A model generated the notes under the pieces. That model saw nothing but the letters and a program-made list of their open reading frames with translations, did no database searches and was not told the origin of the DNA. 43,360 nt of DNA. It comes from Acidimicrobiia bacterium. GTDB taxonomy: Bacteria > Actinomycetota > Acidimicrobiia > IMCC26256 > JAMXLJ01. Of the stretch, positions 27,253 to 43,056 are shown piece after piece (the stretch's first letter is position 1; each line of letters opens with the position of its first letter). The stretch is taken from assembly GCA_024281095.1 (NCBI GenBank), contig JAMXLJ010000078.1, positions 1 to 43,360 on the forward strand, in the 5' to 3' direction. Both the position numbers and the translations under genes were made by a program.

Positions 27253-29073
27253 ATGAGCAAGCGTCGACACCGGCGCGCAGTGGGCCCGGCTCTCCTCATG
27301 GTCGTACTCGCGATCGCGGCGATGCTCGCCGCGTGCGTGCCACCCAGGTCCGGCGGTGTCGCCGCGACCGACGGCTTCCAGCGCGGATCGTCGAGCGGCT
27401 GGGGTACGGCCGACACCGGGGGCTGGTGGTCGCTCGTCGGGTCACCGTGGGAGTGGGCCGTCCTGCCCGGAGCAGGAGTCGTCAACGCCGCCGCCAACGA
27501 TCAGGAGCTCGGGTACCTGTCGCAATCGACGGTTCAGGACGTCGACATCACCGAGACGATGCACCTGCCGCGCTGCACCGGCACGGGCAAGAGCTGCGAA
27601 TCGTCCGTCATCGGTCGTTACTCGCCTGCCTTCAACCCCACCTACTACAGCGTCGGCCTCGTGCAGGGTGCCGGTTCACCCGACATCTTCCTGCGGGCAA
27701 CGCGCAGCGACGGCACGCCCCTGAGCCCCGATCTCGACACCCATCTCCCTGCGGGCGACGGCGCCGCGCTGCAGCTCCGTGTCCAGCTCAGCGGAGTGAA
27801 TCCCACCGCAGTGCGTGCGTACGTCTGGAGCAGTGGCGGGTCGGAGCCCGGGAGCTGGCTGCTCGATACGACCGACAACGACGCTTCCGAGCAGGGCCCT
27901 GGAATGGTCGGTGTGCGCTTCCACAACGAGGACACCGCCGCGACGCACACGTTCCAAGTGAACAGCTACGTCGCCAACGGCACGGCGACACTGGTCACCA
28001 CGACGCCGAACCCGACGGGCACCGCTCACCTGCTGTACGTCGTCGACGACGGTCACGTCTACGTGTACGACATCGACAACAACCACGCCTTGGTGAAGGA
28101 CTTCGCCATTCCCGAGGCGGGCAAGCGCGGACTGGTGATGGCGCCGAGCCGCGGCCTTCTCTACATCTCGGAGTGCGGCCTCACGAATTGCTCCGGGCAG
28201 CACGGCAGTCTGCTCGCATACGACCTCGTGCACGACGTGGTCGCGTGGATCGCGAACTACAAGTTCGGCGTCGACCAGCCCGCGATCACACCCGACGGCT
28301 CGAAGATCTACATGTCGCACGGCGACGACGGCGGTGATTTCACCCACACGGTGCTGGATGCGAACGACGGCAAGCCGATTGCTTCCATCACGACGGGGAC
28401 GAACGGCCACAACACCATCGCCTCGTTGGACGGGAAGCAGGTCTTCATGGGTGGCTACTCGGGGAGCACCTCCGACTACCTCCATGTCGTCGACACCGCG
28501 ACGAATCAGGTCACGCTGAACGCCGGGCCGACCGTCAAGGGGATCCGCCCGTTCACGATCAACGGCAAGCACACCCTCGCGTTCACCACCTCGAGCGACA
28601 CCTGTGGCTTCCAGGTGCTGGACCTCACGAAGGGGCAGGTGCTCGCCACCGTCGGGTTCGGCGGCTTTTGCATGTGGCAAACGAATGCTCCGAGCCACGG
28701 CATCTCGCTGTCACCCGACGAGCGGCGCGTGTACGTCGTCGACGCTCCTCTCCACCTGCTGGAGGTCTACGACGTCGGTGGGCTACGCGCCGGCGCGCCG
28801 GCATTCGTCGCCAGCGTCCCGCTCGGCAAGATGGACGGGAACGAGTCGCCCTGCCAGAGTTTCTGCGTCCAAGAAGGCTGGGCACTGAACGATCTGTCCG
28901 GTCGGTACGTCTACGTCGGCGACGCGGGCAACATCGTCGACACCAGCACGCTGAAGGTGGTCGCCACGCTGGCACCGCTTCAGAACACGCGTCAGGTCAT
29001 CGAGATCGATTGGGCCAACGGCGCAACGAGCGGCACCTCGACCCGGTTCGGCGTGGGACGCCTGACGAGTTAG
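27253..29073 (+). CDS. Secreted beta-propeller-like lipoprotein
   Basis: A 606-residue lipoprotein. Signal peptide with lipobox LAAC; the lipidated cysteine is residue 28. An N-terminal region of about 200 residues looks like a beta-sandwich (QRGSSSGWGTADTGGWW onward). The C-terminal part, from about residue 255, has YVTN-like beta-propeller blades with repeating phrases such as HVYVYDIDN, AITPDGSKIYMSHG, YLHVVDTATNQVT and SLSPDERRVYVVDA. Paired cysteines may form disulphides. ATG at 27253 has a perfect AGGAGG upstream. Function is unknown; such propellers often mediate binding. The stop overlaps the convergent HATPase gene by four bases. Confidence 0.88.
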   Translation: MSKRRHRRAVGPALLMVVLAIAAMLAACVPPRSGGVAATDGFQRGSSSGWGTADTGGWWSLVGSPWEWAVLPGAGVVNAAANDQELGYLSQSTVQDVDITETMHLPRCTGTGKSCESSVIGRYSPAFNPTYYSVGLVQGAGSPDIFLRATRSDGTPLSPDLDTHLPAGDGAALQLRVQLSGVNPTAVRAYVWSSGGSEPGSWLLDTTDNDASEQGPGMVGVRFHNEDTAATHTFQVNSYVANGTATLVTTTPNPTGTAHLLYVVDDGHVYVYDIDNNHALVKDFAIPEAGKRGLVMAPSRGLLYISECGLTNCSGQHGSLLAYDLVHDVVAWIANYKFGVDQPAITPDGSKIYMSHGDDGGDFTHTVLDANDGKPIASITTGTNGHNTIASLDGKQVFMGGYSGSTSDYLHVVDTATNQVTLNAGPTVKGIRPFTINGKHTLAFTTSSDTCGFQVLDLTKGQVLATVGFGGFCMWQTNAPSHGISLSPDERRVYVVDAPLHLLEVYDVGGLRAGAPAFVASVPLGKMDGNESPCQSFCVQEGWALNDLSGRYVYVGDAGNIVDTSTLKVVATLAPLQNTRQVIEIDWANGATSGTSTRFGVGRLTS

Positions 29074-29465
29074 CGCGGCGCGGTCGCGACGGTGAACCAC
29101 ACGGTCTTTCGGCGGCCGTCGGCGGACCGGCTGATCCCCCAGTCGTCCGCGAGCGCGCGCACGATCTGGAGACCGCGGCCCGTCGGTTGCGTCGGGCGCG
29201 GGGACCTGATCGTCGGTTGACCCGGGCCCGCGTCAGTGACCGACACCCGGACCGACTCGGCCGTGCGATCGATCGCGACGCTGAACGCCGTGGCGGCGTG
29301 CCGAACGCTGTTCGTCGTGAGCTCCGACACCATGACCGCGACCGCGTCGGCGACCGCCCGGGGGAGGTCGTCGAGCGTACGCAGTGTGTACCGGCGGGCC
29401 TCGGTGACCGCGGCGGCGGAGTTCGGGAACCGTCGTTCGTCCGTCATCACTCGATCGCCGGTCAC
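29070..29465 (-). CDS. Anti-sigma factor kinase, RsbW/HATPase_c family
   Basis: A 131-residue GHKL kinase with all three motifs intact: N-box MVSELTTNSVRHA, G1 DAGPG and G2 GRGLQIVRALADDWG. It is the third gene of a minus-strand operon of phosphatase, antagonist and kinase. GTG at 29465 overlaps the STAS stop by four bases (GTGA); an in-frame ATG at 29447 is an alternative. Of the three kinases in the window it is the only one with a fully canonical ATP site. Confidence 0.88.
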   Translation of the reverse strand: MTGDRVMTDERRFPNSAAAVTEARRYTLRTLDDLPRAVADAVAVMVSELTTNSVRHAATAFSVAIDRTAESVRVSVTDAGPGQPTIRSPRPTQPTGRGLQIVRALADDWGISRSADGRRKTVWFTVATAPR

Positions 29466-29782
29466 TCGAGACGCAGCACCGGCGTGAGGCCGGTGACCTC
29501 GATGATCTGGCGGATCAGCGCCGACGCGTTGCGAATCCGGATGCCGGGAACTCTTTCCGCCACACGCAGGAGCATCGCGAGCCCGGCGCTGTCCATGTAG
29601 CCCAGGTCGGCCAGGTCGAACACGACCGGCTCGTGCGCTTCGGGCAGCGCCGTGTCGATCTGCGCGGACACCGCGTCGACGTTGGAGGTGTCGATCTCGC
29701 CGGCGAGACGGATCACCGGTGTGCCGGTCGTACCCGCTTCCGTCTCCACGGTGGCGACCGCGGCGTCGTCTACGTCTGCCAT
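29462..29782 (-). CDS. STAS-domain anti-sigma factor antagonist
   Basis: A 106-residue STAS domain with GEIDTSNVDAV and the phosphorylation loop LGYMDSAGLAMLL. The start codon ATG at 29782 lies inside the 3' end of the phosphatase gene (13-base overlap) and is preceded by GGGAG; the stop overlaps the kinase start. The phosphatase, this antagonist and the kinase are thus made from one message in a fixed ratio, a standard partner-switch operon. Confidence 0.9.
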   Translation of the reverse strand: MADVDDAAVATVETEAGTTGTPVIRLAGEIDTSNVDAVSAQIDTALPEAHEPVVFDLADLGYMDSAGLAMLLRVAERVPGIRIRNASALIRQIIEVTGLTPVLRLE

Positions 29783-31440
29783 CGAACTCCCATCAGGGCG
29801 GTGTCGTCGCTGGAGCCGTTGGGGATGACCTCCCGGAGCACATGGTCGAGCAGGTCTTCGAGGGCGCCGTTCGGATGAGCCGCCGCGTTCTCGAGATCCT
29901 GCAGACCGCGGGCAAGAGATTGCCCACGACGTTCGACGAGCCCGTCCGTGTACACGAGCAGCGTCGCACCGCGAGTGATCGGAACCGTGACCTGACGGTA
30001 CGGCGCCGGGCCGGTCACGCCGACGGGAACGTCGATGTCCGTCGGAACGAACTCGGTGCGCCCGGATCTGACGAGAAGCGGCGCGGGATGGCCGGCGTTC
30101 GAGACCGTGAGCGTTCCGGCGTTCAGGTCGATGACCGCGCACACGACCGTGGCGAACTGTCCGTCGCGCTCGAGGCTGATCAGGCGGGCAAGCTTCGTGA
30201 GGATCTCGGCGGGCGGGTCGCCCTCGACCGCGTACGCGCGGATCGCAAAGCGCAGCGACGCCATCATCGTCGCGGCGTGAAGCCCGCGACCCGACACGTC
30301 GCCGACCACCACGACAACGCGATGGTCGTCGAGGGGCACGACGTCGTACCAGTCGCCGCCGACGTCCATCCCCTCGACACCTGCGACGTACCTGCCCGCG
30401 ATCTCCAACGACGGGACGGTCGGGAACGATTCGGGCACCAGACTGCGCTGGAGCGTCTGCGCGATGGTGCGTTGATCGGCGTACAGGCGCGCGTTCTCGG
30501 CGGCCAGCATCTCCGCGTGCGCACGACGGCGGGCGACTCGTTCGACGAGCGCCGCGGCGGCGAGGGTGAGGATGACCCCGAAGGCGCCGAGGAGATACGG
30601 GAGCCGCGCGAGCAACGTGCCACCGAGCTCCTTGTGCGGAGTCATGACGAACAACAGCTGTGAGTCGCCGAATGGCACCGTGGTCGACGCGCGCCGTCCG
30701 CGAAGAAGCGCGCCGCCGGTGCTCGATGCCAGCAGCCGAGCCGGATCGGGTGTGCGCCCGAGGTACAGCGCATAGCCGAGATCCGCGAAGGCGGAGTTCT
30801 TGTCGACGGCTGCTCGCCGGTTCTTCGGCAGCGCGGCTTCCGCGTACACCATGAACCGCGCGCCCGGTTTCGGCTCGATGTAGGCGTAGCCGAGCCGGCG
30901 GTCAGGCGCGCCGAGCAGGTCGATCACCGATACGCCGCTCGCCCGCGACGCGCGGCTCAACACGGCACGGATCTGATCGGCAGGCTGTGCCGTCAACTCG
31001 AGCGGTTTGCCCACGACGACCAGCGGCGCGGGGGTCACGCCCTGGACCGGCCACAACGATGCCGAAACGAAGGGCCCACGGGGGGTCGTGACCAGTGGAC
31101 GGAACAATCCCTCGAATGGCGGCTGCTGGCCGTTGGTGGCATCGGCGAGCACCGCCCCCGACGACAACGGCGTCTGGACGTTCGGGATCGCCGCGGTCAG
31201 GACGGCCGCCGCCTCTCGTACCCGTTGGCGCAAAAGCCGCTTCTCGTTGCTGTCGTGCACGGCCGACGCGCCCCATGAGAGCACGGCGGTGATCAAGAGT
31301 CCGACAAGCATCACCGTGAAGGTGCTGCCGTAGAAGCGCCGGGCGCGCGGCGGGGTCACAGGCTCGGCGCCAACCGGCTCCCGCTTCCCTACCGTGGCCG
31401 CCGGCTTCACGTCGGCGACCGCACTTGCGGGTAGATCCAC
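29770..31440 (-). CDS. Membrane-bound SpoIIE/PP2C serine phosphatase
   Basis: A 556-residue sensor phosphatase. A cytosolic N-terminal tail of about 37 residues precedes TM1 (FTVMLVGLLITAVLSW). An outer sensor of about 230 residues follows, then TM2 (LPYLLGAFGVILTLAAAALV), a short coiled coil, and the SpoIIE domain beginning LQRSLVPESFP. Catalytic metal sites are in VGGDWYD and VVGDVSGRG; YTDGLVERRG and the final DDTALMGVR are typical. GTG at 31440 is chosen because GGAGG lies four bases upstream and because the open frame further upstream has no domain. It is the first gene of the three-gene switch operon. The outer domain resembles no named sensor that I can identify. Confidence 0.88.
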   Translation of the reverse strand: MDLPASAVADVKPAATVGKREPVGAEPVTPPRARRFYGSTFTVMLVGLLITAVLSWGASAVHDSNEKRLLRQRVREAAAVLTAAIPNVQTPLSSGAVLADATNGQQPPFEGLFRPLVTTPRGPFVSASLWPVQGVTPAPLVVVGKPLELTAQPADQIRAVLSRASRASGVSVIDLLGAPDRRLGYAYIEPKPGARFMVYAEAALPKNRRAAVDKNSAFADLGYALYLGRTPDPARLLASSTGGALLRGRRASTTVPFGDSQLLFVMTPHKELGGTLLARLPYLLGAFGVILTLAAAALVERVARRRAHAEMLAAENARLYADQRTIAQTLQRSLVPESFPTVPSLEIAGRYVAGVEGMDVGGDWYDVVPLDDHRVVVVVGDVSGRGLHAATMMASLRFAIRAYAVEGDPPAEILTKLARLISLERDGQFATVVCAVIDLNAGTLTVSNAGHPAPLLVRSGRTEFVPTDIDVPVGVTGPAPYRQVTVPITRGATLLVYTDGLVERRGQSLARGLQDLENAAAHPNGALEDLLDHVLREVIPNGSSDDTALMGVRWQT

Positions 31441-31598
31441 CGAACCTCCGAAGACTGGGAGCGATGGGACCGCCGTCGTGCGCAGGGATGGTAACCGACG
31501 ACGCAGCCACGACGATCGCCCGGCCTGAGCGCGTGTTCGCGGACTGCAGCGTATGGTCACTTCTCGAGGGTCGCTCTCCCGTTCGCGAGTGCGGATGC

Positions 31599-32393
31599 TC
31601 AGCTCGCCCGACGAACCGTCCGCCATGCCTCCCAGGTCACGCGGAGGATCAACGCCGTGATGCCGAGGCCGAGCAGCGGGTCCATGATCGGGACCCCGGC
31701 CGCAACGAACAGCGCGGACGCGACGACTGCGAGGCTGACGTACGCGTCGGCGCGCGCGTGGTGGCCGTCGGCGGTGAGCGCGGCGCTGTTGAGGCGTTCA
31801 CCGGTCCGGGTCCTGATGCGCGCCGCGACCGCGTTTCCGAGACAGCCGATCGCGCCGGCGCACGCCAGCGCAAGGAGGTGGTGCGGGCGCGTGGGATGGA
31901 TGAGTCGCTCGACCGATTCCCCGGCCGCGACGCAGGCGCTCACGAAGATCGTGGCGACGACGATGAAGCCGGCGCGGCGCTCTGCGACACGCGAGCCGAG
32001 GATGAACGCGAGGGCGAGCGGCAGCGCCGTGAGGGCGTCGCCACCGTTGTGGATCAGGTCGGCGAGGAGCGCGACGCTGCCGCTGGCCACGAACACGAGG
32101 GCCTGAACGAGCGCGGCCGCGCCGAGCACGGCGAGTGACAATGCGACGGCTCGGATCCCAGCCCGGGACCGCTTGATGCTCTCGTCGATCAGCCCGTGTG
32201 AGTGGCTGCGCCCATCGGCGTGGTCGTGGTCATGACCATGCACGCGCGCGTCTTGACGTTCGAGCGGGTGGTCGTGCTCGAGGTGCGGAAGCGGAACCGA
32301 CCGTGGGAACGCGCCCGGCACGTGGCGGTGCGCGGTCCGGTAGGAGTGTGCATGGACTCGGCTGCCGTGGCGGTGCAGCTCGGAGCAGGTCAC
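31599..32393 (-). CDS. Cation diffusion facilitator (CDF) zinc-type exporter
   Basis: About 264 residues with six membrane helices and a His-rich cytosolic N-terminus (HGHDHDHADGRSHSHG), usual in zinc exporters. Metal-site motifs are HNGGD in TM2 and HARAD in TM5; both are HxxxD, the pattern linked with Zn/Cd selectivity. It lacks much of the C-terminal cytosolic domain of larger CDFs (it ends soon after TM6). GTG at 32393 is used; a TTG at 32435 and a GTG at 32321 are alternatives, as no clear ribosome site exists. It is divergent from the zinc-sensor ArsR gene, the standard arrangement for metal-induced efflux. Confidence 0.85.
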   Translation of the reverse strand: MTCSELHRHGSRVHAHSYRTAHRHVPGAFPRSVPLPHLEHDHPLERQDARVHGHDHDHADGRSHSHGLIDESIKRSRAGIRAVALSLAVLGAAALVQALVFVASGSVALLADLIHNGGDALTALPLALAFILGSRVAERRAGFIVVATIFVSACVAAGESVERLIHPTRPHHLLALACAGAIGCLGNAVAARIRTRTGERLNSAALTADGHHARADAYVSLAVVASALFVAAGVPIMDPLLGLGITALILRVTWEAWRTVRRAS

Positions 32394-32463
32394 GGAACCA
32401 GCGTACGGCCTGGCGAACCGAAAGACCTCCCGCAAGGCGGTTACTCGTCGAGCACGCTCGCCG

Positions 32464-32469
32464 TAGCAT
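32464..32469 (+). promoter_or_regulatory. Candidate -10 hexamer for the ArsR transcript
   Basis: TAGCAT ends seven bases before an ATG at 32477. If transcription starts there the message would be leaderless and begin with a nine-codon ORF ending at the arsR-family start. Confidence 0.35.
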
Positions 32470-32476
32470 CAGCGGC

Positions 32477-32506
32477 ATGCCCACCGTCGCCGGTGCCCGT
32501 ACGTGA
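32477..32506 (+). CDS. Possible nine-codon leader peptide coupled to the ArsR gene
   Basis: ATG at 32477 opens MPTVAGART, then TGA at 32504-32506, which overlaps the GTG start of the regulator (GTGA). The ATG is seven bases after TAGCAT, suiting leaderless initiation. There is no Shine-Dalgarno site for the GTG itself, so coupling from this ORF would explain how it is translated. Too short to be scored by composition. Confidence 0.35.
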   Translation: MPTVAGART

Positions 32507-32856
32507 GCCGGTCGGAGCGGCTCGTCGAGCACGTCGCCGAGCAGATCGCCGACACGATGTTCGCGTTGTCGACGCCGAGCAGGGTCCAGATCCTCGACTG
32601 CCTGCGTGACGGGCCGCGCTCGGTGAAGCAGCTGACGAACGTGCTGGCGATGGAGCAGTCGGCGGTCTCGCACCAGTTGCGTGTGCTGCGCGACCACACG
32701 CTCGTAAAAGTCGAACGGGTCGGGCGGACCAGGCTCTACGCACTGCACGACGAGCATGTCACCGCGTTGCTCGACGAGGCGTTACGCCATGTCGAGCATC
32801 GGACGCGGCGCAAGCGGCGGCAGCGCGCCGTCGCCGCTGGGGCGGACGAGCGGTAG
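32503..32856 (+). CDS. ArsR/SmtB-family metal-sensing repressor with alpha-5 zinc site
   Basis: A 117-residue winged-helix repressor. The recognition helix region is SAVSHQLRVLRDHTLV, followed by the wing VGRTRLYAL. Helix alpha-5 has D83, H85, H96 and H99, exactly the D-x-H-(x10)-H-x-x-H ligand set that binds Zn(II)/Co(II) across the dimer in SmtB and CzrA. The alpha-3 CxC of cadmium/lead sensors is absent. It should release DNA when zinc is bound. The GTG start overlaps a short upstream ORF. The divergent CDF gene and the downstream transporter at 32862, six bases away, are likely targets, and a matching operator lies at 34566-34589. The C-terminus is a basic tail. Confidence 0.9.
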   Translation: MSRSERLVEHVAEQIADTMFALSTPSRVQILDCLRDGPRSVKQLTNVLAMEQSAVSHQLRVLRDHTLVKVERVGRTRLYALHDEHVTALLDEALRHVEHRTRRKRRQRAVAAGADER

Positions 32857-32861
32857 GCGAC

Positions 32862-34529
32862 GTGGCGACGGTCAACGAGCGCCAGGCGCGTAGGGCTGGT
32901 GCGGGGTCGGTCGCCTCCGCGTCGTTCACGCCGCTCACGGACCGCCGTTCCGTCCTCGACCGCGCGCATCGAGGCGACATCCTGGGCGCACTCGGACGCG
33001 TTCAGTCATTCGACACGGCACCGCGGCGCTCGCTGCGCCGTCGGGTCGCGACGCTGTTCGCGATCATGGGACCGGGTGTCGTCGTGTTGCTGGCCGACAA
33101 CGACGCCGGCGGCCTTTCCATCTACGCACAGGCGGGACAGGACCACGGGCTCCGGCTGCTGTGGTTGGTGGTGGTCCTCGCGCCGGTCCTGTTCGTGAAC
33201 CAGGAGATGGCGGCTCGGCTGGGTGCCGTGACCGGCGCCGGTCACGCGCGGTTGATCTTCGAGCGGTTCGGCCGGCGATGGGGCGGCTTCGCCCTCGCCG
33301 ACCTGCTGGTGCTGAACTTCCTCACGATCGTGACCGAGTTCATCGGGATCGCGCTCGGCCTCGGGTACTTCGGCGTGAGCCGGTACGTCTCGGTGCCCAT
33401 CGCGGCGGCACTGCTCGTCGCGGTCACGGGGACCGGCAGCTTCCGCAGATGGGAACGGGTGATGTACGCGCTGGCCGCGGTCAGCTTCGTTTGCGTGCCG
33501 TTCGCCGTCCTCGCTCGTGCACACCATCCCGCTGCTCAGGCCGCACCTCGTGTCGCAGATCCACTGACGGGCGGGGCGCTGCTCTTCGTCGTCGCGCTGA
33601 TCGGGACGACCGTGGCGCCGTGGCAGCTGTTCTTCCAGCAGTCGAACGTCGTGGACAAGCGCATCACGGCACGCTGGCTCGGCTACGAGCGCGTCGACAC
33701 CCTCATCGGCACGATCATGTTCACCATCGGCGCCGCCGCTGTGCTTGCGGGATGCGCCTTCGTGTTCCGGTCGACGCCCTGGCACGGTGGCTTCTCCGAC
33801 GCGGGACGGACCGCAGCCGCGCTCCGTTCGCGTGCCGGGCCCTGGGTCGGTGCGCTGTTCGCGATCGCGGTCGTCAACGGGTCGGTGTTCGGCGCGGGGG
33901 CCGTCACACTCTCGACGTCGTATGCCCTCGGTGACGCATTCGGCACGAAGCATTCCCTGCACCGCCGTTGGAAGCAGGCTCCGGTGTTCCACGGCAGCTT
34001 CGCCGCGTTGGTCGTGCTCGCCGGCGCGGTCGTCCTCGTCCCTGGTGCACCACTCGGGCTCGCCACCATCGCCGTGCAGGCCCTCGCCGGGATCCTTCTG
34101 CCCAGCGCGACGGTGTTCCTGTTGCTGCTGTGCAACGACACCGCACTGCTCGGTCCGCGCACGAACCCGCGATGGCTCAACGCGCTCGCTTCGGCCGTGG
34201 TCGGCACGCTCATCGTGCTGTCCGCACTGCTGACCGTCTCGACCCTGTTCCCACACCTCGACCCGGCCGTCGTCGCCGCGACCCTCGCGATCGGTGCCGG
34301 CGGCGTCGGCATCGCTACCTTCGCCGTGCTCACCGCGCCGCGCCCGCGCACCACGTTTGCCGGCACGCACTGGGACCGCACGACGTGGACCACACCACCG
34401 CTCGAGACGATCCCGCCGCCTGAACGATCTCGGGCACGAACGTTCGGGCTGGTCGTCCTGCGGTCGTACCTCCTGCTCGCCGGGGCCCTGACGATCGTGA
34501 AGATCGTCCGGCTCATGGTCGGCGTCTGA
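32862..34529 (+). CDS. Nramp-related divalent cation transporter with altered metal site
   Basis: A 555-residue protein with about 11 membrane helices and a basic N-terminal tail of about 60 residues. It has the Nramp layout, but TM1, normally GPG(x8)DPGN, reads GPG then DAGG (D81-G84), and TM6, normally MPHN, reads APWQ (A252-Q255). The selectivity-determining TM6 methionine is thus alanine. Such changes occur in SLC11-related proteins outside the classical Mn/Fe group, including bacterial Nramp-related magnesium transporters. The substrate here is unknown. GTG at 32862 follows the ArsR stop by five bases, so the two are probably one operon under metal control. Confidence 0.88.
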   Translation: MATVNERQARRAGAGSVASASFTPLTDRRSVLDRAHRGDILGALGRVQSFDTAPRRSLRRRVATLFAIMGPGVVVLLADNDAGGLSIYAQAGQDHGLRLLWLVVVLAPVLFVNQEMAARLGAVTGAGHARLIFERFGRRWGGFALADLLVLNFLTIVTEFIGIALGLGYFGVSRYVSVPIAAALLVAVTGTGSFRRWERVMYALAAVSFVCVPFAVLARAHHPAAQAAPRVADPLTGGALLFVVALIGTTVAPWQLFFQQSNVVDKRITARWLGYERVDTLIGTIMFTIGAAAVLAGCAFVFRSTPWHGGFSDAGRTAAALRSRAGPWVGALFAIAVVNGSVFGAGAVTLSTSYALGDAFGTKHSLHRRWKQAPVFHGSFAALVVLAGAVVLVPGAPLGLATIAVQALAGILLPSATVFLLLLCNDTALLGPRTNPRWLNALASAVVGTLIVLSALLTVSTLFPHLDPAVVAATLAIGAGGVGIATFAVLTAPRPRTTFAGTHWDRTTWTTPPLETIPPPERSRARTFGLVVLRSYLLLAGALTIVKIVRLMVGV

Positions 34530-34565
34530 CCCGTCCGCGTCCGCGGCCGCGGCCGCGCTCGCCGG

Positions 34566-34589
34566 TAGCATGAACAGTTGTTCATGTTA
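34566..34589 (+). promoter_or_regulatory. SmtB/CzrA-type operator, 11-2-11 inverted repeat
   Basis: Left arm TAGCATGAACA, spacer GT, right arm TGTTCATGTTA. The arms pair at 10 of 11 positions. The TGAACA-N2-TGTTCA core matches the 12-2-12 TGAA/TTCA operators of SmtB/CzrA-like zinc sensors, and it is an AT-rich island in GC-rich DNA. It overlaps the spacer just upstream of a TAGGAT hexamer, where a repressor would block RNA polymerase. The gene it should control is the ABC operon starting at 34790. Confidence 0.75.
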
Positions 34590-34593
34590 GGAT
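34588..34593 (+). promoter_or_regulatory. Candidate -10 hexamer of the ABC operon
   Basis: TAGGAT abuts the right arm of the operator. Transcription from about 34600 would give a leader of roughly 190 bases before the first gene. Confidence 0.4.
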
Positions 34594-34642
34594 CGTTGCG
34601 TTCCGGTGCCGCGTCGCGGTGGAGTGACGGGGAGGTGTGCTC

Positions 34643-34711
34643 GTGCGTGCCCGACCACGAAGTCCCGAGCCCTCGTCCGTCCGCGTGACGTCAGCGATCC
34701 GGGCCAGCTGA
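34643..34711 (+). CDS. Possible 22-codon leader ORF
   Basis: GTG at 34643 is preceded by GGGGAGGTG, a strong ribosome site, and runs 22 codons to TGA at 34709-34711. The product is Arg/Ser/Pro-rich and not recognised. Because it lies in the long leader of the ABC operon it could be a regulatory leader peptide or chance; no other feature is seen in 34594-34780. Confidence 0.3.
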   Translation: MRARPRSPEPSSVRVTSAIRAS

Positions 34712-34789
34712 CCCGCTGGCTCGTCGGGCCCGCGTTCCCGCGTCGTCTGCCCTTGAGCGCGGCCCAGTACCCGCCCACTCGAGGTGGTC

Positions 34790-35092
34790 ATGCCGTGGGA
34801 CGTTGCCGCCTGCATCCTGGCGGCGTTTGCAGCCTTCCTTGCGGTCGCAGCGCCGCACGCGGCGCGTAGCAGCCGCGCCGGGGCCCGGTTCGCCGTCGCG
34901 CTGCTGATCACGGTCGGGGCGAACGCGGCGATCGCCGTCGTCGAGCCGAGTACGGCCGTCGAGGTCCTCGCGCTCGCAACGGGCGGTGGGCTGCTCGTCG
35001 CGTTACACCGATGGGCCGCGGCACTGCACCGAGGGACACCACACGGTCACCGCGAACGTGCGACCCGTCGAGATCCGTCCGACAACGCCTGA
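34790..35092 (+). CDS. Small membrane protein, first gene of the ABC operon
   Basis: A 100-residue protein with two or three membrane helices (about residues 5-25, 35-53 and 58-76) and a basic, His-containing C-terminal tail. No family recognised. ATG at 34790 has GAGGTGG just upstream; a GTG two codons earlier is also possible. It ends 19 bases before the permease gene and shares its promoter, so it may be an accessory subunit of the transporter; this is inferred from position. Confidence 0.65.
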   Translation: MPWDVAACILAAFAAFLAVAAPHAARSSRAGARFAVALLITVGANAAIAVVEPSTAVEVLALATGGGLLVALHRWAAALHRGTPHGHRERATRRDPSDNA

Positions 35093-35111
35093 AGGGAGGA
35101 GGTGAGCTCCG

Positions 35112-36848
35112 ATGGCTATGCGCCGCCAGTTTCCGACACGAGACGTGCTTCGTCGCCCGCGGCTTCGTCCGGTCGACCTGCTTGTCGGCGCAGCCGTCTT
35201 CGCCCTCCTCTACGGGCTGCTCCGACTCGGTCTGACGCTGACCGCGCCGTTCTCACCCGCGCACGCGCCGTCGAAGATCTCGACCGATCCCTCGCAGCTT
35301 CCCGGCTACGCGCTGCGATCGCTCGCGCGCATGTTCATCGCGCTCGGCCTCTCGGTCGCGTTCACCTTCGTGTACGGCACGGCGGCCGCGCGTTCCCGCC
35401 GTGCGGAGAAGGTGCTCATCCCGATCCTGGACATTCTGCAGTCGGTGCCGATCCTCGGGTTCCTCTCGATCACGGTCACCGCGTTCATCGCGCTGTTCCC
35501 GCACTCGATCCTCGGTCTGGAGTGCGCGTCGATCTTCGCGATCTTCACGTCGCAGGCGTGGAACATGACGTTCAGCTTCTACCACTCGCTGCTCACGCAG
35601 CCTCGCGAGCTCGACGAAGCAGCGCGCCTCATGCGCCTCACCAAGTGGGAGCGGTTCTGGAAGCTCGACGTCCCGAGCTCGATGATCGGGCTGGTCTGGA
35701 ACGGGATGATGAGCTTCGGCGGCGGCTGGTTCTTCCTCACCGCGTCGGAGGCCATCACCGTCAACAAGCACTCCTATGCGCTGCCCGGGATCGGCAGCTA
35801 CGTGGCGACGGCGAGCGCGCAGTCGGACCTGGGCCGGGTCCTGCTCGCGATCGGCGTCATGATCGTCATGGTCCTCGCTGTGAACTTCCTCTTCTGGCGC
35901 CCGCTCGTCGCGTGGTCGGAACGGTTCCGCATCGAGACGACCGAGGCCTCCGAACAGCCGCGCAGCATCATGCTCGACACGCTCCGCCGTTCCCACGTCC
36001 CGCGTCTGCTCGGACGGCCGCTCCAGCCCGTCGTGACCGGTCTCGACCGGGCGACGCGCGTCTTCGGGATCGCCGATCGGCCGCTCACACCCAATGTCGT
36101 GCGCCGTCGTGCCGGCGATGCCGTTTTCGGCGTCGTGGTGGCGATCGGGGTGGTCATCGGCGCGGCGTCGGCGCTCAACTACGTGCAACGCACCGTGGGC
36201 CTCGACGAGTTCGCGCACGCCTTCGCTCTCGGTGCCGTGACGTTCGGCCGGGTGCTCATCCTGCTCGTCGCGTCGACGCTCATCTGGGTGCCTGTCGGTG
36301 TGAAGATCGGCCTCTCGCCGCGCCTTGCGCGCTACGCACAACCCATCGTGCAGGTCCTGGCGAGTTTCCCGGCCAACTTCTTGTTCCCGTTCTTCGCCGC
36401 GTTCCTGATCGCGACCGGCATCAGCCTCAACGTCGGGGGGATCGTCCTGATGGCGCTCGGCGCGCAGTGGTACATCCTCTTCAACACGATCGCGGGGGCC
36501 ATGTCGATTCCGTCCGATCTGCGCGAGGCGATGGACAACTTCGGGGTGCGCGGCTGGCAGCGCTGGCGGCGCCTCATCATCCCGGGGATCTTCCCCGCGT
36601 ACGTCACCGGTGGGATCACCGCTGCCGGTGGCGCGTGGAACGCGTCGATCATCGCCGAATACGTCACCTACGGTCACCACACCCTCGTGGCGACCGGGCT
36701 CGGTGCCTACATCGCCCAAGCAACCGTCAACGGTGAATTCGCCAAGATCCTGACCGGCATCGTCGTCATGAGCATCTATGTCGTCGGGCTCAATCGGATC
36801 GTGTGGCGACGCCTCTATCGTCTTGCCGAAGCCCGCTACTCGCTCTGA
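35112..36848 (+). CDS. ABC transporter permease, fused double domain (NitT/TauT-like)
   Basis: A 578-residue protein made of two BPD_transp_1 permease domains in tandem, so one chain supplies the whole channel. Each half ends in an EAA loop: ELDEAARLMRLTKWERFWKLD in the first (about residue 175) and DLREAMDNFGVRGWQRWRRL in the second (about 480). The EAA loops contact the ATPase. The halves resemble the SsuC/TauC/NrtB group. ATG at 35112 has a perfect AGGAGGTGA at 35097-35105. No gene for a periplasmic or lipoprotein binding component is in the operon. Substrate unknown; the upstream operator points to a metal-related role. Confidence 0.92.
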   Translation: MAMRRQFPTRDVLRRPRLRPVDLLVGAAVFALLYGLLRLGLTLTAPFSPAHAPSKISTDPSQLPGYALRSLARMFIALGLSVAFTFVYGTAAARSRRAEKVLIPILDILQSVPILGFLSITVTAFIALFPHSILGLECASIFAIFTSQAWNMTFSFYHSLLTQPRELDEAARLMRLTKWERFWKLDVPSSMIGLVWNGMMSFGGGWFFLTASEAITVNKHSYALPGIGSYVATASAQSDLGRVLLAIGVMIVMVLAVNFLFWRPLVAWSERFRIETTEASEQPRSIMLDTLRRSHVPRLLGRPLQPVVTGLDRATRVFGIADRPLTPNVVRRRAGDAVFGVVVAIGVVIGAASALNYVQRTVGLDEFAHAFALGAVTFGRVLILLVASTLIWVPVGVKIGLSPRLARYAQPIVQVLASFPANFLFPFFAAFLIATGISLNVGGIVLMALGAQWYILFNTIAGAMSIPSDLREAMDNFGVRGWQRWRRLIIPGIFPAYVTGGITAAGGAWNASIIAEYVTYGHHTLVATGLGAYIAQATVNGEFAKILTGIVVMSIYVVGLNRIVWRRLYRLAEARYSL

Positions 36849-36881
36849 GCGCGCACGGTCATTGTCGTGAAGGAGAGCACC

Positions 36882-38216
36882 ATGGCTTCGAGAGTCCTCA
36901 CCGGCGCGGGGACCACGATCCTCGCCGCCGACCACATCACGAAGGCGTTCACCACGCCGAACGGTGACCCGCTCCCGGTGCTCGACGACATCAGCTTCCA
37001 GCTCCGCGAGGGCGAGATCGTCGCCCTCCTCGGCAAGTCGGGCTCGGGCAAGTCAACGCTGCTGCGCTGCCTCGCGGGACTCATCGCACCCAGCAGCGGC
37101 CGCGCCCTCTACAAGGGTGAGCCGGTGCGCATCGCCAACCCCGGCGTCGCCATGGTGTTTCAATCGTTCGCGCTCCTGCCGTGGCTGACCGTTCTCCAGA
37201 ACGTCGAGCTCGGTCTCGAAGCCCGCGCCGTGCCGGCCGACCAGCGCCGCGACCGCTCGCTGCGCGCGATCGACCTCATCGGTCTCGACGGCTTCGAGTC
37301 CGCCTACCCCAAAGAGCTCTCCGGCGGGATGCGCCAGCGCGTCGGCTTCGCCCGTGCGCTCGTCGTCGAACCCGACGCCCTCTTCATGGACGAACCGTTC
37401 TCCGCCCTCGACGTCCTCACCGCCGAGAACCTGCGCACCGAGCTTCTTGCGTTGTGGTCACGCAGCGACTTCCCGACCCGCGCCATGCTGATCGTCACCC
37501 ACAACATCGAAGAAGCGGTGCTCCTCGCCGACCGGCTCTTCGTCCTCTCATCCAACCCCGGCCGCATCCAAGCCGAACTCACGATCGACCTCCCCCGCCC
37601 GCGGGACCGCAGAAGCCCGGCGTTCGAGGCCCTCGTCGACCAGGTCTACGGCATCCTCACCGGACGCGAGCCGACCCCCGAGGTCGAAGCGCCGGCGCGA
37701 CCCGGGCCGACCGATGTTCCGCTCCCGAGCGCGACGGTCGGCGGCATGGCCGGACTCCTCGAGATCCTCGCCGCGCACGACGGCCGAGAGGACCTGCCCG
37801 ACCTCGCCCACGAGCTCACATTCGAAGTCGACGACCTGCTCCCCCTCGTCGACGCGACCACGATGCTGGAGTTCAGCACCGTCGACGACGCCGATCTCGA
37901 GCTCACCGACCTCGGACGCGTCTTCGTCTCGGCCGACATCCTCCGCAGCAAAGAGCTCTTCGCCCGCCAAGCCCGCGAGCACGCGCCGCTCGTCCGCTCG
38001 ATCTGGAACTCCCTGCACGCGACCAAGGACGGGACGCTCAACGAGGGTTTCTTCATCGACATCCTGCGCCGCGGCTTCACCGAGGACGAAGCCCAGCATC
38101 AGCTCGACATCGCGATCGACTGGGGTCGCTACGGCGAGCTCTACGACTACGACGCCAACACCGGCGAGCTCACGCTCGACACCGGCGCACCCGACGTCCC
38201 CGTACTGTCGACGTAA
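36882..38216 (+). CDS. ABC transporter ATPase with C-terminal AAA-associated domain
   Basis: A 444-residue protein. The N-terminal ABC ATPase has Walker A GKSGSGKST at 51-59, Q-loop Q94, signature LSGGM at 146-150, Walker B LFMDEP at 167-172 (D170, E171) and the H-loop at H207; it resembles SsuB/TauB/NrtD. After an acidic/Pro linker, residues about 285-434 form an AAA_assoc_C-type domain (PF09821-like) with a winged-helix look: LTDLGRVFVSADILRSKELFA, then a helical end with LDIAIDWGRYGELYDYD. That domain is thought regulatory, but its ligand is unknown. ATG at 36882 has AAGGAG six bases upstream. It pairs with the fused permease 33 bases upstream. Confidence 0.92.
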   Translation: MASRVLTGAGTTILAADHITKAFTTPNGDPLPVLDDISFQLREGEIVALLGKSGSGKSTLLRCLAGLIAPSSGRALYKGEPVRIANPGVAMVFQSFALLPWLTVLQNVELGLEARAVPADQRRDRSLRAIDLIGLDGFESAYPKELSGGMRQRVGFARALVVEPDALFMDEPFSALDVLTAENLRTELLALWSRSDFPTRAMLIVTHNIEEAVLLADRLFVLSSNPGRIQAELTIDLPRPRDRRSPAFEALVDQVYGILTGREPTPEVEAPARPGPTDVPLPSATVGGMAGLLEILAAHDGREDLPDLAHELTFEVDDLLPLVDATTMLEFSTVDDADLELTDLGRVFVSADILRSKELFARQAREHAPLVRSIWNSLHATKDGTLNEGFFIDILRRGFTEDEAQHQLDIAIDWGRYGELYDYDANTGELTLDTGAPDVPVLST

Positions 38217-38417
38217 ACACGAGGCTCGTCAGGGCGCGCCCGAGCCGCCAGGTATCGACGCTGACCTGGCCCGCCCCGCGATCGCGCTCAGCACGGAACG
38301 CCACCACTCCGAGCGTCGTCGGCCGCCCTGCCATCGCGAGTGCAGCGGCGCCCGTCTGGGACAGCCGCCCGGAGCACCGGCAGGAACTCCGCGAGGGCTG
38401 CGTCGGTGTCGTGGTCG

Positions 38418-38897
38418 TCAAGGTCGTGGTCGTGGCGACGTGGTGGTCGGCGAACTCGTCGATGTCGTGGCCCGGGACCGCGACGCAGGCGATGACACGG
38501 TGGTCGCCAGCGTTGTGACCGTCCGCGGCGCGGCCCCCGCGGCCGCCATCGGCTGTGTGACGGGCAGGTTCGCCCTGAACTCCGACGGTGACAGGACCGA
38601 CGCGAACAGCTGGGTCAGCTGGTCGGTGACGGTCCTGACCGGTTCGGACGTCCTGGCAGCAGGATCGAGCGGCGCCGGGGGCGGCCTGACCAAAGTCATG
38701 CGGCCGGTCGGCGTGATGCCGGCGGCCGAGCCGGACGAGGCGGGCGTCCTTGGCTTCCCATTCGTGACGATCACATGGGCGCTGTGGCGGGGTCCGTGCG
38801 TCACCACCATCGAGGCGGCCGCGAACACGAGTCCCGTGAGCAGCAAGGCGACGAGCAACCGCTCCTCGTTGGTGCGTGCGTCAAACCACCTCAGCAC
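38418..38897 (-). CDS. Hypothetical membrane-anchored Thr/Ser/Pro-rich protein
   Basis: About 159 residues with one N-terminal membrane helix (LLVALLLTGLVFAAASMVV) preceded by a short charged tail, then a low-complexity outer part ending in a Ser/Thr/Pro-rich tract. No family recognised. GTG at 38897 follows an AGGCAGG element; the frame is open to 38939. A typical signal-anchor N-terminus supports a real gene, but the composition of the tail could also come from decaying DNA. Bases 38217-38417, between the ATPase gene and this one, hold nothing I can name. Confidence 0.45.
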   Translation of the reverse strand: MLRWFDARTNEERLLVALLLTGLVFAAASMVVTHGPRHSAHVIVTNGKPRTPASSGSAAGITPTGRMTLVRPPPAPLDPAARTSEPVRTVTDQLTQLFASVLSPSEFRANLPVTQPMAAAGAAPRTVTTLATTVSSPASRSRATTSTSSPTTTSPRPRP

Positions 38898-42052: not shown

Positions 42053-42108
42053 ACTGTCGCCCAGCTACCGGGGCCGCGTCCCGAGACTGTCAACCAGCTA
42101 CCGGGGCC
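42053..42108 (-). repeat. Two tandem 23-base repeats near the IS481 relic
   Basis: ACTGTC, two variable bases, then CCAGCTACCGGGGCC occurs at 42053-42075 and 42086-42108 (period 33). A partial third copy (GTGTCAGCCAG) is at 42031-42041. The TGTC start and position beyond the transposase start suggest the terminal region of the lost insertion sequence. Nothing else is seen in 41953-42230. Confidence 0.45.
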
Positions 42109-42231
42109 ACGGTTTCCATCATGAACCGGGTCCGCACAGAGAATCCTGCGGCCAGTTTGCGGCCAGTTGCGGATCTGCGGGCGCTTCCCCACTCTCCTGA
42201 TGTTGAGAACAACGCTGTGACGGGCGGCTCT

Positions 42232-42281
42232 TCCGAGCGGACGACGGGACTCGAACCCGCGACCCCAACCTTGGCAAGGTT
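42232..42281 (-). repeat. tRNA-proximal copy of the att-like repeat
   Basis: Fifty bases that match 39533-39583 with one base fewer. They include the anticodon-to-3'-end half of the intact tRNA-Gly gene plus four flanking bases, as at a regenerated attachment site. Confidence 0.8.
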
Positions 42282-42308
42282 GTGCTCTACCAACTGAGCC
42301 ACGTCCGC
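42236..42308 (-). tRNA. tRNA-Gly (anticodon GCC)
   Basis: A 73-base gene, CCA not encoded. On the minus strand the acceptor arms are GCGGACG and CGTCCGC; the D arm is GCTCAGTTGGTAGAGC; the anticodon stem-loop is CAACC-TTGCCAA-GGTTG with anticodon GCC; the T arm is GCGGG-TTCGAGT-CCCGT. All arms pair (one G-T), so it should be functional. Its 3' half is duplicated 2.65 kb downstream. Confidence 0.96.
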
Positions 42309-42360
42309 GTGCCGAGCCAGGATAGCAACCGGGCGACGGGCCCTCGGGGAGGACACACGT

Positions 42361-43056
42361 ATGAGCGGCACGGCCGAGGGCGCCCGATCGCCGCTGGAGC
42401 TGTTGGGGGTGCTCGGCATCCAGGACGTGGAGATCGGCCCGGACCTGCACCATCTCGAGATCTACACGCTCCGGGGCCTCATCACGCTCCTCTGGCACGG
42501 GCCCGACGAAATCCGCGATGTCGTGATCGCGTGCGGCGGCGCCATGGGCGGGTTGCTCGGCCCCGCAAACGGCTTGTACCACCACCTCGGAACCGCGCTC
42601 GTGGAGCGCGGCATCGGCACGCTTCGCGTCGGCTATCGCCGCCCGAACGATCTCGACGCGTGTGTTCACGACCTCGCCGCGGTCGCGGACCTCGCGTGGC
42701 ACCACGGCGCGCGGCGCTTCGTCACGATGGGACATTCGTTCGGCGGCGCGGTTGCCATCCAGGCCGGCATCGTGCTCGGCGCGCATGCCGTGGGCGTGGT
42801 CACATTGTCGACGCAGTCAGCCGGCTGCGAGGAGGCAAGCCAACTCGGCGAAGTTCCACTGCTCCTGTTGCACGGTGAGCACGACGAGATGTTGCCGCCC
42901 GAGACGAGCTTCATCGTGCGCGAGCTCGCCGGGCACGGCGAGCTCGTGATCCTCCCCGGCGCGGGTCATGGTCTCGTCGAAGCGGGCGACGAGCTGCGCG
43001 CGCGACTCCTCGACTGGGTCCCTGCGCGCTTCGAGGACGCGCCGCCGCCGGGATAA
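42361..43056 (+). CDS. Alpha/beta hydrolase
   Basis: A 231-residue alpha/beta hydrolase. The nucleophile elbow is GHSFGG (Ser about residue 123), the acid is in LLLHGEHDEMLPPE and the catalytic His in LPGAGHGL. The oxyanion region is near IACGGAMGGLLGP. It is a small single-domain form (dienelactone hydrolase or esterase size); the substrate is unknown. ATG at 42361 has GGGGAGG upstream. It is divergent from the tRNA gene, 52 bases away. Confidence 0.88.
   Translation: MSGTAEGARSPLELLGVLGIQDVEIGPDLHHLEIYTLRGLITLLWHGPDEIRDVVIACGGAMGGLLGPANGLYHHLGTALVERGIGTLRVGYRRPNDLDACVHDLAAVADLAWHHGARRFVTMGHSFGGAVAIQAGIVLGAHAVGVVTLSTQSAGCEEASQLGEVPLLLLHGEHDEMLPPETSFIVRELAGHGELVILPGAGHGLVEAGDELRARLLDWVPARFEDAPPPG

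Follow-up and report, generated by a model that had tools for sequence, protein, structure and literature searches.

A candidate SmtB/NmtR-type operator ahead of an ABC unit with predicted magnesium links in an Acidimicrobiia genome

The window, that is, the whole 43,360-nucleotide stretch of Acidimicrobiia DNA analysed here, contains an inverted repeat at 34566–34589 that is a candidate operator for an ArsR/SmtB-family sensor with alpha5 metal ligands. The reading we favour, with moderate confidence, is that this sensor, probably the product of 32503–32856, represses a downstream ABC module for Mg2+ transport. Judged from the sequence, the assignment of the operator to the SmtB/NmtR type is fairly secure, and the window ArsR is the probable protein acting at the site. 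The candidate, which has no assigned strand, was identified from its sequence, from shuffled controls, from its uniqueness in the genome, and from the same core preceding arsR-CDF in the related genomes G168 and G219. A preliminary description had placed the ABC operon in a metal regulon, a proposal that gains support here; relatives of the unit are wired to magnesium supply. That magnesium appears to be the metal of the transport module (ABC and NRMT) was not foreseen.

The inverted repeat and its gene neighbourhood

The repeat is of the 11-2-11 type, TAGCATGAACA-GT-TGTTCATGTTA, with 10 of 11 pairs and a TGAACA-N2-TGTTCA core, exactly as first described. The core, CATGAACA-GT-TGTTCATG, is perfect, as is the inner 8-2-8 portion. 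Hyphenated TGAA/TTCA half-sites with a 2-base centre are also found in the 12-2-12 operators of the SmtB/CzrA family (SmtB, ZiaR, AztR, and AzuR), and AATACCTGAACA-GA-TGTTCAAGTATT from Anabaena is among the sites listed for this family (PMC8790569). The known targets of SmtB/CzrA are metal efflux pumps and metallothioneins, whereas the window site precedes the ABC unit of a magnesium-type module.

The repeat is intergenic, located 36 bases past the stop codon of the Nramp-type gene and 194 bases ahead of the small ORF that opens the ABC unit. A TAGGAT hexamer that had been placed directly against the repeat overlaps it by two bases (34588–34593). It reads TGT-TAGGAT, an extended -10-like element (34585–34593, plus strand) that lies over the right arm and may be the promoter of the ABC unit; this reading comes from inspection of the letters alone, and a consensus scan found no full sigma-70 promoter.

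On the upstream side, a gene for a CDF cation exporter with a His-rich N-terminus (31599–32435, minus strand, family search) is divergent from arsR (32503–32856, plus strand), and the gene for a Nramp-family protein of the NRMT (Mg2+) type (32862–34529, plus strand) is located 5 bases past arsR. The ABC unit, also on the plus strand, opens with a small hydrophobic ORF of 102 residues with no family assignment (34784–35092), followed by a permease with two fused BPD_transp_1 domains (35112–36848) and an ATPase with a C-terminal AAA_assoc_C (PF09821) domain (36867–38216), both identified by family search. Elsewhere in the window, a SpoIIE phosphatase (family test) in the region 29070–31626 adjoins small ORFs that resemble STAS and anti-sigma kinase domains, and the ORF 42090–42419, which reads DVAQLVEHNLAKVGVAGSSPVVRS, looks spurious; such a pattern is frequent where a tRNA gene gets translated.

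The window ArsR and the recurrence of the core

The window ArsR combines an HTH_5 winged helix with a DxH-x10-HxxH ligand set (LHDEHVTALLDEALRHVEH), the features of an alpha5 metal sensor. Among solved proteins it is closest to NmtR (E 4e-25), SmtB, and CzrA, and the recognition helix is near-identical. It is 54% identical to NmtR, the Ni/Co sensor of Mycobacterium tuberculosis, and has the same core of the recognition helix (MEQSAVSHQLRVLR) and the same alpha5 pattern D-x-H...H-x-x-H, present as DEH...HVEH in the window protein. An HTH_5 search of the source genome gave 12 matches, and among the 10 viewed as translations the window ArsR is alone in combining the QSAVSHQLR recognition helix with the full DxH-x10-HxxH set.

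The ArsR gene 2 kb upstream of the repeat had been described as zinc-type; its position stands, but zinc as the metal is not supported, since among solved ArsR proteins the nearest match is NmtR (Ni/Co). In NmtR, His3 and the N-terminal amine complete a six-coordinate nickel site beyond alpha5, and the protein senses Ni and Co (PMC7055735). Unlike NmtR, which has an N-terminal Gly-His arm, the window ArsR as called (MSRSERLVEH, with a presumed start codon) lacks a His/amine arm of this type, and would retain an alpha5-only site like those of SmtB and CzrA. Because the arm is missing from the protein as called, Zn or Co sensing is equally likely, and zinc is a possible metal for this sensor.

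Repressors of the SmtB type usually control their own genes. No repeat of the present kind was found within 300 bases upstream of arsR (best match 7/12), nor before the CDF gene. A precedent for a missing autoregulatory site is AzuR of Anabaena, which acts elsewhere and whose gene has no repeat close by (PMC8790569), and by this analogy a repeat at the promoter of arsR itself would not be obligatory for an SmtB/CzrA-type operator. An operator sequence for NmtR was not found in the literature searched.

Two genomes of the same class, both from genus g93, carry the exact core where arsR begins in an arsR-CDF operon, as AATATATGAACA-TC-TGTTCAGATATT in G219 and ATACATGAACA-TA-TGTTCATATAT in G168. 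Both ArsR proteins carry the alpha5 ligand set DTHV...HYLH, and in G219 the Pfam matches exceed the curated cut-offs for arsR as well as for CDF, with ZT_dimer included in the exporter. These two operons, and the location 2 kb from the repeat of the one such ArsR (SmtB/NmtR type) seen in the source genome, speak for the SmtB/CzrA-type operator that had been proposed. Exact cores occur in 16 of 385 genomes across the class, no commoner than in the reversed control, and the support therefore lies in the position of the G168 and G219 cores and not in their numbers.

The core and related repeats are also found in other settings. In G043 (L180), TGAACACATGTTCA overlaps the start of a TetR gene, and in the source genome two near-adjacent repeats of the TGAAC-N4-GTTCA type are located between divergent P450-like and TetR genes (L142, ~1480–1515), so that other proteins can use the core. 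A further copy, ATGAACATGTGTTCAT in G384 (L182, 1501–1514), lies ~15 bases before the gene for a 178-residue membrane protein and has no ArsR nearby. That the window repeat is the operator of another dimeric repressor, e.g., a TetR-family protein encoded elsewhere, is nevertheless unlikely, since inspection by eye of the genes listed for the window revealed no TetR gene, and the CAT...ATG flanks are nearer to those of the arsR-CDF sites than to the TetR site, which reads CTGAACA...TGTTCAG.

A chance palindrome between two genes, with no protein site at all, is likewise quite improbable. With any gap of 0–8, palindromes of equal score are expected at 0.12 per shuffled window (60 dinucleotide shuffles), a figure that leaves some room for chance in a site picked by eye; with a gap of 2, the expectation falls to 0.015 per window (200 dinucleotide shuffles of the window), and TGAACA-N2-TGTTCA is present in none of 200 shuffled windows. 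Counted by pairs alone, 10/11 repeats are not rare (~1.9 expected, 5 seen in the window), but the others are G+C-rich, and the rarity of 34566–34589 resides in its A+T-rich core. When the 4.39-Mb, 98% complete source genome was scanned for the repeat, as the preliminary description had advised, the window copy proved to be the sole exact TGAACA-N2-TGTTCA by search counts over the genome, and the three one-mismatch versions of the core are all within genes. This uniqueness, the intergenic position over a -10-like element, and a distance of at most 2.1 kb from the only ArsR of the SmtB/NmtR type observed in the source genome argue against chance. A lone site within ~2 kb of the lone sensor of its kind would be roughly a 1/1000 coincidence under random placement, an estimate of our own for a site that was picked knowing the ArsR.

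The absence of the repeat at orthologous operons does favour chance. Conservation of the repeat had been named as a test, but the repeat was found upstream of none of the ~80 orthologous ABC units, and none of these loci carries a window-type ArsR beside the ABC genes. A 10/12 match in L070 falls within an ArsR coding stretch and was rejected as a conserved operator. In three genomes of the class that have the ABC unit (G068, G150, and G036), the window ArsR has no match at E 1e-15, and the missing repeat in these genomes therefore says little on binding here.

A LexA (SOS) box, through which LexA would repress the downstream unit, is a serious alternative, yet highly improbable. In its favour, the Gram-positive/actinobacterial SOS box has GAAC-N4-GTTC at its core, the source genome has a LexA gene (family search) and 40 YGAAC-N4-GTTCR sites versus 2 in the reversed control, and the window site departs from the CGAACA-N2-TGTTCG sites of that genome at the outer bases only. 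Against it, the recognisable SOS promoters of the genome (recA, lexA, imuA-like, uvrD-like, and uvrA) all read CGAAC...GTTCG, a pattern that 34566–34589 does not match as its outer bases are T and A and extend as CAT...ATG, and no SOS-like gene lies downstream. The SOS regulon itself, with CGAAC-N4-GTTCG, was located on contigs C28, C70, C81, and C139 of the source genome G000 (L140, L141, L152, L153, and L162); the recA and the imuA-, uvrD-, and uvrA-like genes are named from their sequences, and LexA alone is confirmed by family search.

Magnesium links of the NRMT and ABC genes

The best solved match of the protein encoded at 32862–34529 is the Mg2+ transporter EleNRMT (7qia, E 8e-65), ahead of the runner-up (2e-12) by ~50 orders of magnitude. 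The signature of NRMT joins DxxG in helix 1 to TxxA/T in helix 6 (PMC8806188); it is present in the window protein as DAGG and TTVA, and the DxxG/TxxA signature is common to EleNRMT and Clostridium acetobutylicum NrmT. The window gene is preceded by arsR, in contrast to the M-box of known NRMT magnesium transporters. The arsR-nrmT pairing was found in none of 29 other NRMT loci of the class, and an M-box is located ahead of NRMT in two of the 19 class loci scanned.

The ABC unit, previously described as NitT/TauT-like, is more than that label conveys, given that the adjacent "Nramp" is an NRMT and that relatives of the unit are headed by M-boxes, follow mgtA or mgtC, or lie beside a different ArsR. 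Orthologous units pair a fused permease with an AAA_assoc_C ATPase, and the genes linked to them are mgtA, mgtC, CorA, NRMT, and ArsR. M-box (ykoK) Mg2+ riboswitches head six such loci, from Arthrobacter, Sinomonas, Leifsonia, and Nocardia, either directly at the ABC unit (L040 5587–5755, L047 5560–5735, and L053 4071–4252) or ahead of mgtC-ABC (L060 4795–4965, L072 4877–5047, and L083 4840–5010). M-boxes are also located beside linked NRMT genes (L039, L050, L065, and L066) and, in Leucobacter, at a CorA operon close by (L101, L104, and L107). By guilt-by-association, we predict Mg2+ as the substrate of the ABC unit. A genome-wide search of 48 genomes found the M-box (RF00380) in 20 and did not find it in the source genome; neither an M-box nor any other Rfam element exceeds the gathering score in 31000–38600.

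An ArsR gene is located beside the ABC unit in 31 of 80 loci. In Micrococcales-type genomes it diverges from the permease gene, whereas in Pseudonocardiales and Mycobacteriales it diverges from mgtA-mgtC-ABC; in Streptomyces and kin it is located just downstream of the ABC genes. These ABC-linked proteins fall into a clade of their own that excludes the window ArsR (tree support 93/98; the placement of the L178 row carries no meaning). The divergent regions often hold another palindrome, up to AACACTTGCGCAAGTGTT (L041 3306–3323, L042 512–529, and L052 3037–3054, with similar ones in L051, L057, L064, L101, L104, and L105), which sits at the promoter that the ABC-linked ArsR has in common with either mgtA or the permease gene, and is the likely operator of this clade. 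CTTGYRCAAG is present in 9 ArsR-divergent loci versus 1 unrelated locus, with 178 scanned. Near the window ABC unit, ACTTGCGCAAGT, the putative operator of the ABC-linked clade, is absent. No M-box heads the ABC unit in the 19 ArsR-divergent loci scanned with Rfam.

Proposed control and its meaning for Mg2+ transport

In the mechanism that we propose, ArsR dimers would, while free of metal, occupy the TGAACA half-sites across the -10 region and keep the ABC unit repressed, and would be released once a transition metal (Zn, or Ni/Co) is bound. If the ABC unit and the neighbouring NRMT gene together constitute a magnesium-transport module, the site would couple Mg2+ transport to an excess of transition metals. 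Assuming that the direction of transport is inward, raised Mg2+ import could, as a conjecture, counter Ni, Co, or Zn that enters via, or displaces Mg2+ from, Mg2+ sites.

The recognised classes of bacterial Mg2+ transport are CorA, MgtE, MgtA/B, NRMT, and CorB/C (PMC4072509, PMC9276622), and the 2022 review of Mg2+ transport among these two sources names no ABC type. We tentatively suggest that ABC transporters of this build, in which the permease is fused and the ATPase carries AAA_assoc_C, may represent a class of Mg2+ transporter that has gone unrecognised and is controlled by the M-box, by the ArsR clade with ACTTGCGCAAGT, or, in the present genome, by an SmtB/NmtR-type ArsR that would tie Mg2+ transport to transition-metal stress. 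If the ABC unit moves Mg2+, a new transport class would be added, and in the window a transition-metal sensor, not a riboswitch, would be in control. The regulators would then have been swapped on one transporter, with RNA in some genera and two kinds of ArsR in others.
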